From NCBI GenBank assembly GCA_021820485.1, contig JAKADO010000014.1, forward strand, positions 1-45,652: 45,652 bases of DNA, in the 5' to 3' direction. Of this stretch, positions 20,131-37,850 are shown in pieces. The stretch's first letter is position 1; the number at the start of each line of letters is the position of its first letter. The notes under the pieces were generated by a model that saw nothing but the letters and a program-made list of their open reading frames with translations, had not been told where the DNA came from and did no database searches. The stretch comes from Bacillota bacterium. GTDB taxonomy: Bacteria > Bacillota > Sulfobacillia > Sulfobacillales > Sulfobacillaceae. The translations under genes were made by a program, and so were the position numbers.

Positions 20131-21240
20131 TCAAAGTGAACCATGCCGGCCGCGCTGTGGATTGAACAGATAAGGGGCTTGGCGGCCATGCAATGCCACA
20201 TCCACCAACAATTGGCCCAATGCCGGACCGAATTTGAAGCCGTGCCCGGGAAACCCGCCAGCCACCACCACTGTGGGCCAGTCAGGGTTGCGGCCGATGA
20301 CAAAATGTCCATCTGGGGTGTTGGTGTAGAGGCAGACCCTGGCGTCCTGCACCTCTACCGGATGAATGGGGGGGATGAAGTCCAGCGCTGAGGCCAACTG
20401 GTCAATGTCTTGTTGATGCACATGGCGGTCGATGTCGGAGACAGACGAGACGGTTCCCCCATGATGAATGCCTGCCTTGATTCCTTGTCCATTCAGATAG
20501 GGAAACCCGTAGACTTGAATGCCGGTCTCAGGCTGCTCCCGGATATAGATGGGAAGAGACGTCAGCGGTGTGGCATGCCGAGCCTTAAACCACACCGGGA
20601 CTTGACGTTCCACGTCGAGAGGCAAGGTGGGCCACCATTCCTGAAGCCAGGCGCCTACCGTCAGCACGACCTGCCGAGCCTCGATGGACTCCCTGTCGGT
20701 TGTGATCACGGTGTGTGAGGGCAGGGAACGGAGGGATTGCACGGTGCAGTTGAAGTGGGCAACAGCGCCCGCCTCCCGCGCCGAGGACAGCAAGGCATCC
20801 AATGCGGCCTCCACTTGGAGGTAGCCGGCAATGGGTTCATAAATGCCGACTTCGTCGGGGCAGGGACGGAATCCAGGGAACCGGCTGACAATATCTGTCG
20901 TGTCGAGCTCATCGTAGGGCAGCCCATGAGTCTTGGCCGCTAGACGGGCCCCGTGAACCACCGCGGAGGTCGGGAGACCCATCATGAGGCCCCGCTCCTC
21001 ACGAGAAGCGTCCTATTCGTCAAGTCTTCCAGGCGGTGCCATTCGCGATAGGCTTCCTGAACAAAGGGGACATAATCGGGATGCTCAAAGTACGCCTGAC
21101 GGATGATGCGTGTCTTGCCGTGCGACGAGCCGTTGGTGTGGGCGACCGAGCAGCCCGATGACCCGGAAGCCCCTCTGGGCCGCTTGGTAGAGTGTGGAGG
21201 TTCCGGCAATGCCTAGTCCTATAACCGCCAAGTCACACAT
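20131..21240 (-). pseudogene. Monomeric sarcosine oxidase-like FAD oxidase, two frameshifts
   Basis: Three pieces in order make one MSOX/SoxA-type protein. Piece 1 from ATG 21240 has the dinucleotide motif [20 protein letters not shown]. Piece 2, about 21150 to 20985 in another frame, has [20 protein letters not shown], the flavin-contacting GSSHG region. Piece 3, back in the first frame from about 20990, holds the rest to 20131, including VCLYTNTPDGHFVIG, whose Cys aligns with the residue that links FAD covalently in MSOX, and GGFPGHGFKFGPALG. The second break fits loss of one G in a G run near 20995. The two shifts compensate, but stops between them prevent read-through. Sequencing error cannot be excluded. 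Intact enzymes demethylate sarcosine or related N-methyl amino acids. Confidence 0.8.
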
Positions 21241-21320
21241 TGCATCCCCGTCTTTCGCTGCTGACTTCGTGAGGTAATCATGGATACCCTCCGCTGCGCC
21301 ATGCAAAATTGGCATGATGT

Positions 21321-21349
21321 TTGATATGCGCATGCCCAAATCGTATGTT
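21321..21349 (+). promoter_or_regulatory. Promoter of the unusual tRNA gene
   Basis: TTGATA (21321-21326), 17 bases, TATGTT (21344-21349). Predicted start near 21356, only about 3 bases before the mature 5' end, so this tRNA has its own promoter. Confidence 0.55.
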
Positions 21350-21358
21350 TGTACGTAT

Positions 21359-21455
21359 GACGACCACTGGGTCCTGGTGGGCTCCCTCGGCTGCAAACCG
21401 AGTGTCCTGGGACGGGGTCTCAGGAGTTGGGTTCGATTCCCAAGGGTCGTCTCCA
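21359..21455 (+). tRNA. tRNA-Cys (GCA) with selenocysteine-tRNA (selC-like) architecture
   Basis: 97 nt including an encoded CCA (21453-21455). Acceptor 21359-21366 pairs with 21444-21451: seven Watson-Crick pairs plus a terminal A-G. The T stem 21427-21431/21439-21443 abuts it, giving the 13-bp (8+5) branch of bacterial tRNA-Sec instead of the usual 12. The D stem has 6 bp (21369-21374/21379-21384) closed by a UGGU tetraloop. The anticodon stem is 21386-21390/21398-21402 with loop CUGCAAA, anticodon GCA. The variable arm is an 8-bp stem (21405-21412/21418-21425) with loop CGGGG. The discriminator is U73. GCA and U73 are cysteinyl-tRNA synthetase identity elements, while the body is that of tRNA-Sec. 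An ordinary tRNA-Cys has a short variable loop. Confidence 0.88.
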
Positions 21456-21474: not shown

Positions 21475-21514
21475 GAGGCGCTCGAAAGAAGCCGTGCCTT
21501 CTTCCGAGCGCCTC
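21475..21514. terminator. Long hairpin between tRNA and convergent regulator gene
   Basis: GAGGCGCTCG (21475-21484) and CGAGCGCCTC (21505-21514) pair perfectly, and an inner AAGAAG/CTTCTT extends the stem. There is no T tract on either strand. It lies between convergent units and may act as a bidirectional terminator. Confidence 0.5.
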
Positions 21515-21582
21515 TGATTCCTGCAAATATTATGATAAGTGATTCACCCATAGGATAATGTCCTGGAGGGCTCATGGGAGTC

Positions 21583-29986: not shown

Positions 29987-30183
29987 GGCGCTCCCCTTCT
30001 AACAGATTTACCATGTTATATGTCTTAACGGCGAAACATGGGAGTCAAAAACTGTCGATCATGAAAAAATGATTCACAGGCCTAAGGCGGCTATCCCTGT
30101 CCCGCAGGTCGTCCCCACGCATCATTCCCAGCGGTGTGCGTATGAATAGGAGAAAAGGCGTGCATAGAAAGTAGGGAGCGCCC

Positions 30184-32196: not shown

Positions 32197-34218
32197 CTAG
32201 GATTGGACTGGCAGTCCGAGATGATGAGAGAGGAAAGTCCAGATGTCTGCCTCTTCATCGAGCCACTGTTCCACCGACTTGCCGACGCCATGTCCGGCTT
32301 TGGCCGCAACGCGCAGCAAAATCGGCTCGCCAGAGCTGCTGGCCTTTTGCAGCAAGGCGGTCATCTTGCGGGCATGCATGGGATCTACGCGACTATCCTC
32401 GTCTGAGGTGAAAATGAGCGTCGCGGGATAGCGGGTGCCGGGCACGACATGATGATAGGGCGAATAACTGTAGAGCCATGCGAACTCCTCGGGGTTCTCC
32501 GGTGAACCATACTCTTGGGTCCATAAATCTGCGATGAGGAAACGGTGAAACCGCAGCATGTCGAGCAATGGCACGCCAATAATGACGGCATGGGCCAACT
32601 GGGGGTTCTGGGTGATGAAGGCGCCTGTCAGCAATCCGCCGTTGCTGCGCCCTGTGACGCCCAGATGTTCGGGATCGGTATATCCCGCCTGAACCAAATG
32701 AAGGGCCGCCGACGCGAAGTCATCGAAGACATTTTGCTTGTGCTCCCGCATGCCGGCTCGGTGCCAGGATTCGCCGAACTCGTTCCCGCCCCTCAGCGCT
32801 GCGATGGCAAAGATTCCTCCTCGCTCAACCCAAGCCCGAACCGAGGCGGAATAGGCAGGCAGGTAGGGCACGTCAAATCCGCCGTAGCCGGTCAACATGG
32901 CGGGGGTGTGCCCGTTCTTTTGAAATTCGGCGGGATGGGCAATGAAGAGCGGAATGCGCGTTCCGTCCTTGGAGGTGACCCATTCCCGCGTTACTTGGAC
33001 AGCCTCCGTGGCGTCTGCTGACTGCGCCCATAAGATATCCACCAATCCTGCGTCGTCGACGCGGTGGATGGCAGCGGGAACGGCGAAGCTGGAATAGCCG
33101 TAATACAACGCCTGATTGGTGCTGGAGAGCCCGATGATGCCGCATGCGGCCGGCAAGTCCATTTCTTGCTCCAAGCGCCCGTCCAGCGTGAAAGCGGTCA
33201 AGCAGGAGACCGCATCCTTCAGGGTATGGAGAAAGAGGTGATTCGGGGTAGCAGCCGCTTCTATAATGGGTTCGCGCGTCCGAGAGGGGATCACGGTGGT
33301 CACTGTGCCATCGGCCAGCGACACCTCCGCGACTCTCCCAGTGTCGCTTTCGAAGTTCGTCAACACCAAGAGTCGGTCGCCTGTCCATAGGGGCTCCGCG
33401 ACCACCTCGCCGTGGTCGAAAACACACCGAGGCGTCAGATCCTCTGGGTCCCGATCCACCACGTACAGTACGGTACGGGTCCAGCCATAACTTAGGGCGA
33501 TGACCAGATGGCGCCCAGACGGCGAGAGCGATAGTCTCGGCATGGCCCGCTTGTCATCGGGCGAGGCGAAGATCAGCGGATCATCCTGGTACGGTGTGCC
33601 CAACTTGTGATAATAGACTCGCGAATGGTAGTGCTCGTCGCCGGTCGGGACTGAGCCTGGCTGGGGATAGCGCGTATAAAAGAAGCCATCACCGCCGTCC
33701 GGAAAAGCAACCGAGGCATAGCGGGCGCGTGGTATGCGGTCCTCCAGGAGGCGCCCTTCCTGAAGGTCGTATACGTGCAGCACAGCCCACTCGTTGCCAT
33801 GCTCCGACAGTCCATAGAGAATATAGCGTCCATCCTGGGACGTGTACGCCCAGTCGACGTGCATGGGCTCGCCAGCCCCGACTTCATTGGGGTCGACAAC
33901 CACCAACCGCGTGCCATGCCGTTCCGCATAGAGCACGGCATGCTCCTGGCCAGCCTCCCGGCGTTGGTAGAGCAGCGTGTCGCCGTCACCATGAGGCAGG
34001 CTGATGTCGGGCGTGCTGCGGAGTTCCTTCAATCGCCGCCGGATCGCGTCGCGGCCGGAATAGGTGCTAATCATACTTTGGGTATGGGCCATCTGCTCCT
34101 CAGTCCAGGCGCGCGTTTCTGGACTCTGGGCATCTTCCAGCCACCGGTACGGGTCAGTAATTGAGTGCCCGTGCAGAACCTCGGTGACTGGTCGTTCATC
34201 AGTCTTGGGATATGGCAT
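32197..34218 (-). CDS. Prolyl oligopeptidase (S9A family)
   Basis: 673 residues. The N-terminus reads MPYPKTDERPVTEVLHGHSITDPYRWLED, the hallmark of prolyl oligopeptidases, and is followed by the seven-bladed propeller. The catalytic triad is Ser in VTGRSNGGLLTG, Asp in TSDEDSRVDPMHA and His in AAKAGHGVG. It cleaves short peptides after Pro in the cytoplasm. ATG 34218 is chosen with GGAG upstream; it starts 20 bases inside the end of the Mo-hydroxylase small-subunit gene, so translation is coupled. The frame is open further upstream without a family match. It is the last gene of the operon. Confidence 0.93.
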   Translation of the reverse strand: MPYPKTDERPVTEVLHGHSITDPYRWLEDAQSPETRAWTEEQMAHTQSMISTYSGRDAIRRRLKELRSTPDISLPHGDGDTLLYQRREAGQEHAVLYAERHGTRLVVVDPNEVGAGEPMHVDWAYTSQDGRYILYGLSEHGNEWAVLHVYDLQEGRLLEDRIPRARYASVAFPDGGDGFFYTRYPQPGSVPTGDEHYHSRVYYHKLGTPYQDDPLIFASPDDKRAMPRLSLSPSGRHLVIALSYGWTRTVLYVVDRDPEDLTPRCVFDHGEVVAEPLWTGDRLLVLTNFESDTGRVAEVSLADGTVTTVIPSRTREPIIEAAATPNHLFLHTLKDAVSCLTAFTLDGRLEQEMDLPAACGIIGLSSTNQALYYGYSSFAVPAAIHRVDDAGLVDILWAQSADATEAVQVTREWVTSKDGTRIPLFIAHPAEFQKNGHTPAMLTGYGGFDVPYLPAYSASVRAWVERGGIFAIAALRGGNEFGESWHRAGMREHKQNVFDDFASAALHLVQAGYTDPEHLGVTGRSNGGLLTGAFITQNPQLAHAVIIGVPLLDMLRFHRFLIADLWTQEYGSPENPEEFAWLYSYSPYHHVVPGTRYPATLIFTSDEDSRVDPMHARKMTALLQKASSSGEPILLRVAAKAGHGVGKSVEQWLDEEADIWTFLSHHLGLPVQS

Positions 34219-34693
34219 GGGAGTCTCCTTCACGGATGATAGTGGCCGCCCGCTCGACGGCATTGACAATATGTTGATATCCGGTGCAGCGGCAGAGATT
34301 GCCGGACAGCGCCTCACGAATTGCACTCCGGGTAGGATTTGGATTATTCTCCAAGAAATGCGCCGCGGTCATGAGAAATCCTGGGGTGCAGAATCCGCAC
34401 TGCAGCGCATGTTCCTGCCAGAAGGCTTCCTGAACCGGATGGAGTACGCCATCCTTTGCCAATCCCTCGACGGTGGTGATTTCGCAGCCGCTTGCCGTGA
34501 CCGCCAAGGTGAGGCACGACCGGGCCGGGCGACCATCGAGCAATACTGTGCAGGCTCCGCAGACACCTTGTTCACAACCCAGGTGAGTGCCAGTGAGGTG
34601 AAGCTCATCCCGAAGCACGTCCGCCAACAGCCAGCGGGGCTCCACTTCCAACGCATGCTTTACGCCGTTGACGGTCAGAGTAATGGGAACCAT
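34199..34693 (-). CDS. coxS-like: Mo-hydroxylase small subunit, two [2Fe-2S] clusters
   Basis: 164 residues. The plant-type ferredoxin cluster is bound by CEQGVCGACTVLLDGRPARSC and the second cluster by CGFCTPGF and CRCTGY. This is the electron-transfer subunit of the xanthine dehydrogenase/CO dehydrogenase family, carrying electrons from molybdopterin to FAD. ATG 34693 overlaps the last base of the FAD subunit's stop (TAATG). The CO dehydrogenase nomenclature is structural only; the substrate is not known. Confidence 0.93.
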   Translation of the reverse strand: MVPITLTVNGVKHALEVEPRWLLADVLRDELHLTGTHLGCEQGVCGACTVLLDGRPARSCLTLAVTASGCEITTVEGLAKDGVLHPVQEAFWQEHALQCGFCTPGFLMTAAHFLENNPNPTRSAIREALSGNLCRCTGYQHIVNAVERAATIIREGDSHAISQD

Positions 34694-35580
34694 TATGCTT
34701 GCCTCCCTTTCATTTCTGCCAACTTCGCTCGCTCCAGCGCGCCCGCGAGGGCTTTCTCCACCAGAGTTTGGGCCAGTTGGCGGCGGTAGTCAGCGCTGGC
34801 ATGCAGGTCATCGGTGGGGTCGATGGCCTCCTTGATGTGTTGTCCGACCTCTCGCCAGAGAGATGGGCTTGGCGATTGGCCTTGCAGCGAGGCTTCGAAG
34901 TCGGGATCTCGCCATGGGATGTCCGCCACTCCGCCTAACGCAATTCGCGCCGACTGAATGGTGTCGGAGGCGTTCAAGACGATGGATGCGGCGGCAATGG
35001 CCAGGGCAAAATCGCCGGCTCGAACGGCGTACTCCGTGATGTGGGCTCCCGCATGGGCATGGGAGGGCGTTCGCACCCCCGTCACCATTTCGTCAGGGGC
35101 CAGGGCGGTGATGAAGTAGCTGAGAAAGAACTCCCGGGCGGGTATGGTTCGCTCTGCAGCGGCTGACGAAACCACCAATTCCCAGTCGAACAGAGTCGCC
35201 AAGACCGGCAGCTCCGCAGCGGGGTCCGCGTGCGAGAGGCTTCCGCCAATGGTGCCGCGGCTGCGGATAGCGGGGTGTCCGATGAGATGCTCTGCCTCGG
35301 CCACCAGCGGCACCTTGCGCTGAATGAGCGGATGTTGTTCCAACTGATAGTGGCGCACCAAAGCGCCGATGGCGAGTCCTTGATCGGTTTCCTTGATGTG
35401 GGTCAGTTCAGTGAGACCGTTGATGTCAATCAGCACGTCAGGATGGGCGAGACGCATGTTCATCATGGGAATTAAGCTCTGCCCACCCGCCAGGATCTTG
35501 GCGTCGCCGTGCTCGCTCAGCAACTGCAGCGCCTCGTCGAGAGTATGTGGCTGGTAATACTGAAAGGCTGGCGGTTTCAT
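34693..35580 (-). CDS. coxM-like: Mo-hydroxylase FAD subunit
   Basis: 295 residues. FAD-binding motifs of the CoxM family are visible: ILAGGQSLIPMMNMRL near residue 31 and TIGGSLSHADPAAELP near residue 110. It accepts electrons from the iron-sulfur subunit. Its ATG overlaps the large-subunit stop by 4 bases and its stop overlaps the small-subunit start by one, so the three subunits are translated as a coupled set. The gene order L-M-S differs from the M-S-L order of authentic cox operons. Confidence 0.93.
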   Translation of the reverse strand: MKPPAFQYYQPHTLDEALQLLSEHGDAKILAGGQSLIPMMNMRLAHPDVLIDINGLTELTHIKETDQGLAIGALVRHYQLEQHPLIQRKVPLVAEAEHLIGHPAIRSRGTIGGSLSHADPAAELPVLATLFDWELVVSSAAAERTIPAREFFLSYFITALAPDEMVTGVRTPSHAHAGAHITEYAVRAGDFALAIAAASIVLNASDTIQSARIALGGVADIPWRDPDFEASLQGQSPSPSLWREVGQHIKEAIDPTDDLHASADYRRQLAQTLVEKALAGALERAKLAEMKGRQA

Positions 35581-37850
35581 TGGAAGCCTCCTTTCTCCTC
35601 TAAAGCCTGAAACAGTCTTCCGGGGGTTACAGGGGCAAAGTCCAATTTCAGCCCCCGGTCCTGGAAGGCATCTTCGACAGCCGAGAGTACAATGGCTTGC
35701 GACGGGATGATGCCGGCTTCCCCAACCCCCTTATAGCCAGCAGGATTGCTGGGCGCTGGATAATCGCGATGGTGAATCTCAATGTCCGGGCTTTCCACGG
35801 CACCGGGCAATCGATAATCCAAGAAGGAGGTGGTCAACGGCTGCCCATCTTCGCTATAGATCATCTCTTCGTAGAGAGCGCTGCCGAGTCCCTGCACGGT
35901 GCCCCCGATGACCTGTCCGTTGGCCAACAGCGGATTTACGATGGTTCCCCCATCATGGACGATGACGTATCGCTCGATGCGAATGTCGGCTGTTCTTTCA
36001 TCGACGCGCACAATCATGCCGTGGGATCCAAATCCATACGTGGGCGTGCCGGAGCCAAAGTAGTCTTCATGGATGAGCATCTCGCCAGAAGGCGCGATTT
36101 TTCGGGCTAGCTCGGCCCAGTCTAGAGAGACGCTGGGGACTCCTTGGACAGAGAACCGGCCATCCTGAAAAATGATGTCGTCGACGTGGGCTTCGAGCGC
36201 TCGCGCTGCCCAATCCTTAGCCTTGGCAATAAATCCTTCGCCGGCAACACGTGCCGCGTTGCCGGCCATAATCATGGTGCGGCTGCCGAAGGTTCCAATT
36301 CCCTTTTGAATCTGGTCCGTGTCGCCTTCCACCACGGTGATGCGGTCCAAAGGCAACTGCAATGTATCCGCAGCAATTTGCGCCAGGGCCGTGCGGTGCC
36401 CCTGGCCCTGGCCGGTGGCGCCTGTGCTCAACAGAACTTGACCGTCCTCCAACAGGCGAAGCCGCACCCCTTCGAATCCAAACCCGGCCGAAACTTCCAC
36501 GTAGTTGGCGACGCCCAACCCCAAGCGAATGCCGTCCTGGCGGGCAGCCGCCTGCCGCTTTCGAAATGCCGAAAGGTCGATGGCCTCGAGCAGATCCTGA
36601 AATGCCTGAGGGAAATCGCCGGAGTCATACATGGCGTCTGGGATGCCGGTTCGATAGGGCAGTTCGTCGGGCCGAACCAAGTTTTTCCGGCGAATCTCGA
36701 TCCGATCCATCCCTAGTTCTTCCGCAGCACGGTCCAACATGCGCTCGATGATGTAGTGCCCTTGGGGGCGTCCTGCGCCTCGATACGGGGCCTGGGGCAC
36801 TTTGTTGGTGAGCACGGCCGCGCCATTGATGGCCAGATGGGGGATGCGGTACGGGCCGGGCAAGTTCCTGGCGGTGGTCCGTGAGACAATCATGCCGCCG
36901 CCCGGGTAGGCGCCATTGTCTTGATAGTAGGTATCGACTAAGGCCACGAGCGTTCCATCGCGGTTGATGCCCAACTCCACATGATGAATTTGTTCCCGCT
37001 CCTGATAGGTTGAGAGAAACTCTTCGAATCGGTCACCCGCCCATTTGATGGGTCGCTGAAAGTGGACCGCGCAGTAGGTGACCAACGCTTCTTCCGGATA
37101 CGTTCCGTTTTTGACGCCGAATCCGCCGCCCACTTCCGGGGCAATGACGCGGACTTGGCTTTTCTCCATGCCCAGATATTCCGCAATGCGCTCTTGGGCG
37201 CGGTGCACGGATTGGGTGGCGTGATAAACCAACAGAGTTTGGTTCTGGGGATCATAATGCGCGGCGATCCCTCGGGGTTCCATAGGTTGGGCACTGACCC
37301 GTCCGAGGCGCAGCGTTGCCGTGACCACGTGGTCCGCTGCAGCCAAAGCGCCTCGGCCTGCGCCGCTTTCGTACTGCACGCGATCGACGACGTTGGTGCC
37401 CAGAGACGGGTGAAGAATTTCCTGGTCTTGGGCGGCTTCCTCGGCATTGGATAGCGCCGGCAATGGCTCATAGTGAACCTCGACCAGCTCCGCCGCATCT
37501 TCGGCCACGTACCGGTTGTCGGCCAGTATGGCGGCGACCGGTTCACCGACGTAATAAACGCGGTCATGCGCGAGGGCAGGTGGAGCGATGGGGGCCATGC
37601 CGGGCAAGGGGCGCCGGAGGTTCTCCCACTCTTGGGATGTGATGACGGCGTGCACTCCCGGCAGCTTTTTGGCCGCTTCCGTATTTATTCGGGCGATCCG
37701 GGCATGGGCATGAGGAGAACGGACCAGAGCCATGACCCATTGACCCTCGAAATTGATGTCACTCACATACTGGCCCAATCCTTGTACGAGCGCACGATCT
37801 TCCGTGCGGGGAACGGGCCGGCCAATCCAGCTTCGTTCTTGAATGGCCAT
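35577..37850 (-). CDS. coxL-like: Molybdenum hydroxylase large subunit, form II (AYRGAGR type)
   Basis: 757 residues. The molybdopterin-binding family is clear from the N-terminal WIGRPVPRTEDRALVQGLGQYVSD, GGGFGVKNG, GATGQGQGHRTALAQIAA and the C-terminal VGEAGIIP, which carries the catalytic Glu. The active-site loop is APYRGAGRPQG. True form I CO dehydrogenases have AYxCSFR with a copper-binding Cys; here it is absent, so this is form II. Members oxidise CO poorly if at all and may act on aldehydes or N-heterocycles. ATG 37850 follows GAGGTGA. A TATAAT at 37881-37886 lies upstream. Confidence 0.92.
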   Translation of the reverse strand: MAIQERSWIGRPVPRTEDRALVQGLGQYVSDINFEGQWVMALVRSPHAHARIARINTEAAKKLPGVHAVITSQEWENLRRPLPGMAPIAPPALAHDRVYYVGEPVAAILADNRYVAEDAAELVEVHYEPLPALSNAEEAAQDQEILHPSLGTNVVDRVQYESGAGRGALAAADHVVTATLRLGRVSAQPMEPRGIAAHYDPQNQTLLVYHATQSVHRAQERIAEYLGMEKSQVRVIAPEVGGGFGVKNGTYPEEALVTYCAVHFQRPIKWAGDRFEEFLSTYQEREQIHHVELGINRDGTLVALVDTYYQDNGAYPGGGMIVSRTTARNLPGPYRIPHLAINGAAVLTNKVPQAPYRGAGRPQGHYIIERMLDRAAEELGMDRIEIRRKNLVRPDELPYRTGIPDAMYDSGDFPQAFQDLLEAIDLSAFRKRQAAARQDGIRLGLGVANYVEVSAGFGFEGVRLRLLEDGQVLLSTGATGQGQGHRTALAQIAADTLQLPLDRITVVEGDTDQIQKGIGTFGSRTMIMAGNAARVAGEGFIAKAKDWAARALEAHVDDIIFQDGRFSVQGVPSVSLDWAELARKIAPSGEMLIHEDYFGSGTPTYGFGSHGMIVRVDERTADIRIERYVIVHDGGTIVNPLLANGQVIGGTVQGLGSALYEEMIYSEDGQPLTTSFLDYRLPGAVESPDIEIHHRDYPAPSNPAGYKGVGEAGIIPSQAIVLSAVEDAFQDRGLKLDFAPVTPGRLFQALEEKGGFQ

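Follow-up and report, generated by a model that had tools for sequence, protein, structure and literature searches.

The closest known system to the tRNA gene described here is the selC* tRNA-Cys (Mukai 2017, as described in PMC7609411, on which we draw throughout). As described there, selC* tRNA-Cys carries a long variable arm, U73 and a GCA (or UCA) anticodon, and it is marked out by an A51a bulge in an 8/4 branch; Firmicutes are among its phyla, and selB* and/or cysS* accompany it only in some delta-proteobacteria. The combination of GCA and U73 forms the main identity elements of tRNA-Cys (PMC7609411). Two other groups are mentioned in the same paper: tRNA-Secs with sense anticodons (Mukai 2016, as cited in PMC7609411), and allo-tRNAs (Mukai et al. 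2017), which have a 12-bp branch, either 8/4 or 9/3, and serine identity.

The gene lies at positions 21359-21455 of a 45,652-nucleotide stretch of DNA from a Sulfobacillaceae bacterium (hereafter the window, meaning the whole stretch analysed), and a first-pass annotation had described it as a tRNA of selenocysteine-tRNA shape with a cysteine anticodon. Such tRNA-Sec-like molecules with altered anticodons had been said to be known from metagenomic surveys, and counterparts are indeed described in PMC7609411. The gene poses a puzzle: a full tRNA-Cys is present, yet the bacterium keeps a second one shaped like tRNA-Sec. By examining its fold, its relatives within the order and its counterparts in other phyla, we conclude that it is probably an additional cysteine tRNA with a Sec body, structurally a variant on selC* tRNA-Cys.

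Fold, identity elements and upstream region

The gene is real, being called by cmscan as tRNA-Sec and by ARAGORN as tRNA-Cys(GCA). The match of 21359-21455 to RF01852 (59.9 bits, E 8.7e-10, gathering cut-off 47 bits) beats that of the general tRNA model, which belongs to the same clan, and so in the covariance-model comparison that the first-pass annotation had proposed, the tRNA-Sec model wins and an ordinary tRNA fold is not preferred. The features of the locus, in window coordinates, are as follows.

21301-21315, no strand: dyad ATGC-N7-GCAT at -58, immediately before the -35 box
21321-21349, plus strand: sigma-70-like promoter TTGATA-17-TATGTT, a consensus match only; its -10 box ends 9 nt before G1
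21359-21455, plus strand: Sec-like tRNA-Cys(GCA) gene, kept in relatives; U73 at 21452, encoded CCA at 21453-21455
21359-21365, plus strand: 5' strand of the acceptor stem, 7 bp with 21445-21451; 100% of cells paired (n = 10 sequences)
21366, plus strand: A7a, layer 8, facing G at 21444 in an A.G mismatch
21369-21384, plus strand: D arm, 6-bp stem and UGGU loop; compensatory changes at columns 14-23 and 15-22
21386-21402, plus strand: anticodon arm with loop CUGCAAA; CUGCAAACCG unchanged across 10 members
21405-21425, plus strand: long variable arm, a 9-bp hairpin with a GGG loop; both-side changes at six pairs across relatives
21427-21443, plus strand: T arm, 5-bp stem UUGGG/CCCAA, without an A51a bulge

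G1 lies at 21359, C72 at 21451 and the GCA anticodon at 21393-21395, within an arm whose stem is 5 bp long. The acceptor/T stack consists of 13 layers (seven standard pairs, the A.G of layer 8 and the 5-bp T stem). The 13-bp branch (8+5) of the first-pass annotation therefore stands as a geometry, since layer 8 is A-U in four relatives and canonical tRNA-Secs have G.A there, but its eighth acceptor layer is a mismatch and not a pair. Its 6-bp D stem with UGGU loop is borne out by the fold and by compensatory changes in relatives, and the GCA anticodon, U73 and encoded CCA that it listed were all located; its 8-bp variable arm has to be corrected to 9 bp (21405-21413 with 21417-21425, including one G-U). 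Across ten sequences 93% of cells are paired and changes on both sides occur at 13 pairs, values that none of 500 shuffles equalled.

The promoter that had been attributed to the gene is supported by the consensus match at 21321-21349, and most relatives have a -10-like box at about the equivalent position. The conserved dyad at -58 is newly seen here: 8 of 11 family loci have a match to at least seven of its eight bases between -61 and -55, whereas 5000 shuffled trials gave a mean of 0.03 such loci and a maximum of 2. Five of the dyad loci are syntenic and so are not independent; those of G001 and G011 lie elsewhere and have the dyad too. None of 30 canonical tRNA-Sec genes, which have a TTGACA-type promoter, has it at that position. 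The dyad is probably a regulator site, its spacing would fit a LysR-type site, and we lean towards the view that a dyad-binding activator regulates the GCA tRNA. A genome-wide pattern search in seven genomes gave no convincing target for a dyad regulon, and the selenium-associated LysR NF040786 was rejected as the regulator, with no protein over the cut-off in 26 genomes.

Several observations concern the surroundings of the gene. Downstream of it, at about 21476-21518, is a strong inverted repeat whose loop AGCCGTGCCT is identical in G002 and G006 while the stem sequence differs; it may belong to the 3' end of a minus-strand NTPase gene. Two minus-strand frames, at 20131-20985 and 21085-21396, together make up an amine oxidase gene (N-methyl-tryptophan oxidase-like) that forms a single frame at the equivalent place in G002 and G006; the split gene is a pseudogene or an assembly error. 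Farther away, at 34199-37850 on the minus strand, translations assigned by eye indicate a three-subunit operon of the molybdenum hydroxylase/CO-dehydrogenase type.

Coexistence with the normal tRNAs and conservation in the order

The window's genome (G000, a 3.24 Mb assembly, 92% complete) carries a normal tRNA-Cys on contig C125 at about 30101-30172, so the gene in the window is not the sole tRNA-Cys, a reading that we reject. A search for selA and selB, also proposed in the first pass, found one gene of each, and there is a single CysRS. Three formate dehydrogenases each have one in-frame TGA in the reading frame, and Sec is therefore read from UGA in this genome, a codon that the anticodon GCA does not match. 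No canonical tRNA-Sec(UCA) was found in the 92% complete assembly; it is probably lost in an assembly gap, because the TGA-encoded formate dehydrogenases, SelA and SelB are present and relatives carry tRNA-Sec(UCA). The same three components led us to reject the reading of the GCA tRNA as a replacement Sec tRNA. Given the normal tRNA-Cys, SelA and SelB, and the genes with in-frame TGA, the tRNA does not serve the genome as its one tRNA-Cys and does not stand in for tRNA-Sec, and it plays no part in reading the Sec codon.

Besides the copy in the window, the taxonomic family has 14 further copies, one of them degenerate, and the sister family of the order has one (in G035). Intact family copies occur in G000, G001, G002, G006, G011, G013, G014, G017, G021, G022, G023, G027, G030 and G031. 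Relatives carry canonical tRNA-Sec(UCA) as a separate gene in addition to the GCA tRNA; G001 has two different tRNA-Sec genes in addition to it (locus L020 and G001:C12:20786-20877). CCA is mostly encoded. Layer 8 is A.G in the degenerate copy as in ten intact members; four others show A-U there and G035 shows U.C, and of 30 canonical tRNA-Secs from the class 28 have G.A. The purine mismatch is thus a trait common to both tRNAs here with its orientation swapped, and the swap is a candidate discriminator between them.

The degenerate copy in G005 (L117, G005:C67:4645-4739) has lost one base in the anticodon arm and is apparently decaying, and several relatives lack the gene altogether, so that over evolutionary time it can be dispensed with. 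Both facts could suggest that the gene in the window is a relic or pseudogene, yet compensatory changes, unchanged functional bases and a promoter conserved elsewhere in the family make this hardly credible, and they agree with the first-pass opinion that the gene looks functional. In one genus the D arm has been reduced to 5 bp with a three-base loop, which suggests that mimicry of tRNA-Sec has loosened there and counts against the explanation that we prefer.

SelB is present in all 14 relatives that bear the GCA tRNA, a co-occurrence that is not significant within the relatives alone (p 0.07). Gene order is common to five family members and the remaining loci lie elsewhere; an operon partner was accordingly rejected, no conserved partner gene adjoining the GCA tRNA across the family loci of the order. 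No second or dedicated SelB* or CysRS* was found among 42 genomes, and no selenium genes lie near the GCA tRNA in the order Sulfobacillales. The lack of significance within the relatives, of dedicated factors and of selenium neighbours all count against the explanation that we prefer, as does the failure of the dyad and NF040786 searches to yield a regulator.

Phylogeny and occurrence in other phyla

In a maximum-likelihood tree of the tRNAs, built from only 89 columns with the anticodon and base 73 masked, 50 GCA tRNAs from the phyla named below stand apart from all 42 UCA tRNA-Secs (support 94/94) and the GCA tRNAs of the Sulfobacillus family form a clade (99/94); two GCA outliers, L079 and L118, group with the UCA tRNA-Secs. 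A single ancient lineage, which would include the known selC* tRNAs, is favoured and not proven, because the columns number only 89 and a local origin is compatible with an AU test (p 0.28); the tree itself disfavours descent from the tRNA-Sec of the order. Of the 52 tree sequences with GCA, 51 have U73, and of the 42 with UCA, 40 have G73.

These pairings bear on the idea, raised in the first-pass annotation, that the tRNA might be charged with Sec through SelA. In its full form this would make it a tRNA-Sec with an altered anticodon, charged with serine by SerRS, converted by SelA and delivering Sec to chosen Cys codons. The Sec body and long variable arm are kept, SelA and SelB are present, and sense-anticodon tRNA-Secs are described (Mukai 2016, cited in PMC7609411); but U73 stands in place of G73, a canonical tRNA-Sec(UCA) exists alongside in relatives, the three formate dehydrogenases of G000 use in-frame TGA, and the D arm is shortened in one genus. 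The linkage of GCA to U73, the reading of UGA as Sec and the separate tRNA-Sec of relatives leave Sec charging unlikely, and the altered-anticodon tRNA-Sec as a whole very improbable.

When 84,980 named species genomes were scanned with a pattern, 78 matches resulted, and 45 of the 50 tested scored with the covariance model. The matches fall in about eight phyla in all: they include Sulfobacillus (with S. thermotolerans), Ammonifex and other Clostridia, Desulfacinum and other delta-proteobacteria, Actinomycetota, Nitrospirota, Acidobacteriota, Planctomycetota and Poribacteria. SelB is present in 40 of 43 genomes with a Sec-like GCA tRNA (38 over the cut-off and two cut at contig ends), and a search of 36 genomes with the tRNA-Sec model showed that most have a canonical tRNA-Sec as well. 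The three genomes without SelB are of planctomycete types and belong to the planctomycete/acidobacterial subgroup, which may therefore do something else. The GCA tRNAs of planctomycetes and acidobacteria (L186, L196, L144, L170, L184, L133, L167 and L187) mostly start with GGCCGGU.

A second SelB gene exists in the genomes of about half of the named loci and lies directly downstream of the tRNA in 17. The delta-proteobacterial tRNAs have the A51a bulge in their T stem and are followed by selB*; they are the selC* tRNA-Cys of PMC7609411. The groups that, like the tRNA in the window, have no bulge include Sulfobacillus, Geothermincola/Solincola and the Nitrospirota locus. In members with a simple 8/5 branch and no selB*, such as those of Sulfobacillus thermotolerans (complete genome CP019454, L141), what the tRNA itself does can be told apart from what SelB* does. 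At selB*-bearing delta-proteobacterial loci (L134, L135, L161, L164 and L204, with selB* in most), MvhD/HdrA-like genes adjoin the tRNA. MvhD/HdrA are candidate targets of SelB*-dependent Cys insertion on the basis of this adjacency; as targets of the selB* subgroup at large they were rejected, Cys at the suspected site not being general.

Selenium-gene neighbours (yedE, yedF and the selenium LysR) in other phyla are newly seen here. At L183 the LysR regulator NF040786 is just upstream and YedF just downstream of the tRNA; YedE and YedF are neighbours at L172 and, by sequence clustering, at L192; L142 has YedE; and L199 has YedF together with a Sec lyase-related cysteine desulfurase. At L146, L193 and L199 the gene for the Sec-like tRNA-Cys is preceded, at a distance of 4-8 nt, by a gene of the 2-hydroxyacyl-CoA dehydratase type with its activase.

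Role of the tRNA and comparison with known systems

Because tRNA-Cys identity rests mainly on GCA and U73, the reading with the best support is that the single CysRS charges this tRNA, and we regard it as very likely. The explanation that we favour, a second cysteine tRNA with a Sec body, is preferred because of the GCA/U73 pairing, the one CysRS and separate tRNA-Cys, the covariation and the link to SelB, and because of the selenium-gene neighbours elsewhere, the conserved dyad and the separate lineage (94/94). Under this explanation the ordinary CysRS would charge the Sec-bodied tRNA with cysteine and the product would be able to read UGC/UGU; the gene would be driven by its own regulated promoter and kept beside a normal tRNA-Cys and a normal tRNA-Sec. 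The association of the tRNA with SelB and with selenium genes suggests that its Sec-like shape affects how the Cys-tRNA is used: most likely it allows this Cys-tRNA to be treated separately from the bulk pool in selenium-related physiology, via SelB or via selenium/sulfur-dependent regulation. Delivery by SelB or in a context-specific way is a tentative part of the proposal, less probable than its opposite.

A simpler account is that of a plain extra tRNA-Cys isoacceptor, used via EF-Tu and induced at high cysteine demand or stress, whose body reflects ancestry without special function. The anticodon loop CUGCAAA of the normal tRNA-Cys, the regulated look of the promoter and the want of a dedicated SelB* or CysRS* all fit it, yet the Sec body is kept over phyla and the tRNAs are almost confined to SelB-bearing genomes, and we judge it rather improbable. 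Use off the ribosome, for instance to supply an enzyme with Cys or, as a regulatory RNA, to signal selenium/sulfur status, would accord with a stand-alone, regulated and patchily lost gene and with the selenium/sulfur neighbours in other phyla; it appears a good deal less plausible still, as the anticodon loop is unchanged and CCA mostly encoded, as in a decoding tRNA, and the order has no conserved partner enzyme gene nearby.

The second, Sec-bodied cysteine tRNA could also be part of something larger: an ancient second Cys-decoding system tied to the Sec trait in many phyla, in which SelB (or SelB*) would carry the tRNA, under selenium/sulfur control, to selected UGC/UGU codons. We offer this as speculation, with a probability as low as that of the plain isoacceptor; if true, cysteine would be placed at selected codons, those of selenoprotein variants with Cys being one example. 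The tRNA is a testable system instead of a curiosity, given that it is conserved across phyla and linked almost perfectly to SelB, and given its selenium-gene neighbours and the conserved dyad.

Compared with known tRNAs, the gene shares the anticodon loop CUGCAAA, U73 and CCA with the canonical tRNA-Cys of its genome, which differs in its 7/5 branch and short variable loop. With tRNA-Sec (RF01852) it has in common the 13-layer branch, the 6-bp D stem, the UGGU loop and the long variable arm, but it has GCA in place of UCA, U73 in place of G73, and A.G in place of G.A at layer 8. Allo-tRNAs, as presented in PMC7609411, are likewise long-arm tRNAs from the same metagenomic surveys; the tRNA described here differs from them in its 13 layers, 5-bp T stem, U73 and GCA. 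From selC* tRNA-Cys as described in the same paper the present tRNA differs in that it has a 5-bp T stem without the A51a bulge, A.G at layer 8 and 8/5 geometry, and its genome has a single SelB and a single CysRS, without selB* or cysS*. Because the hallmark 8/4 branch with A51a bulge and the selB*/cysS* genes are lacking, we regard the tRNA as a new 8/5 variant and not as a strict selC* member, one that shares with selC* tRNA-Cys the tRNA-Sec body, the long variable arm, U73, the GCA anticodon and coexistence with the Sec machinery.
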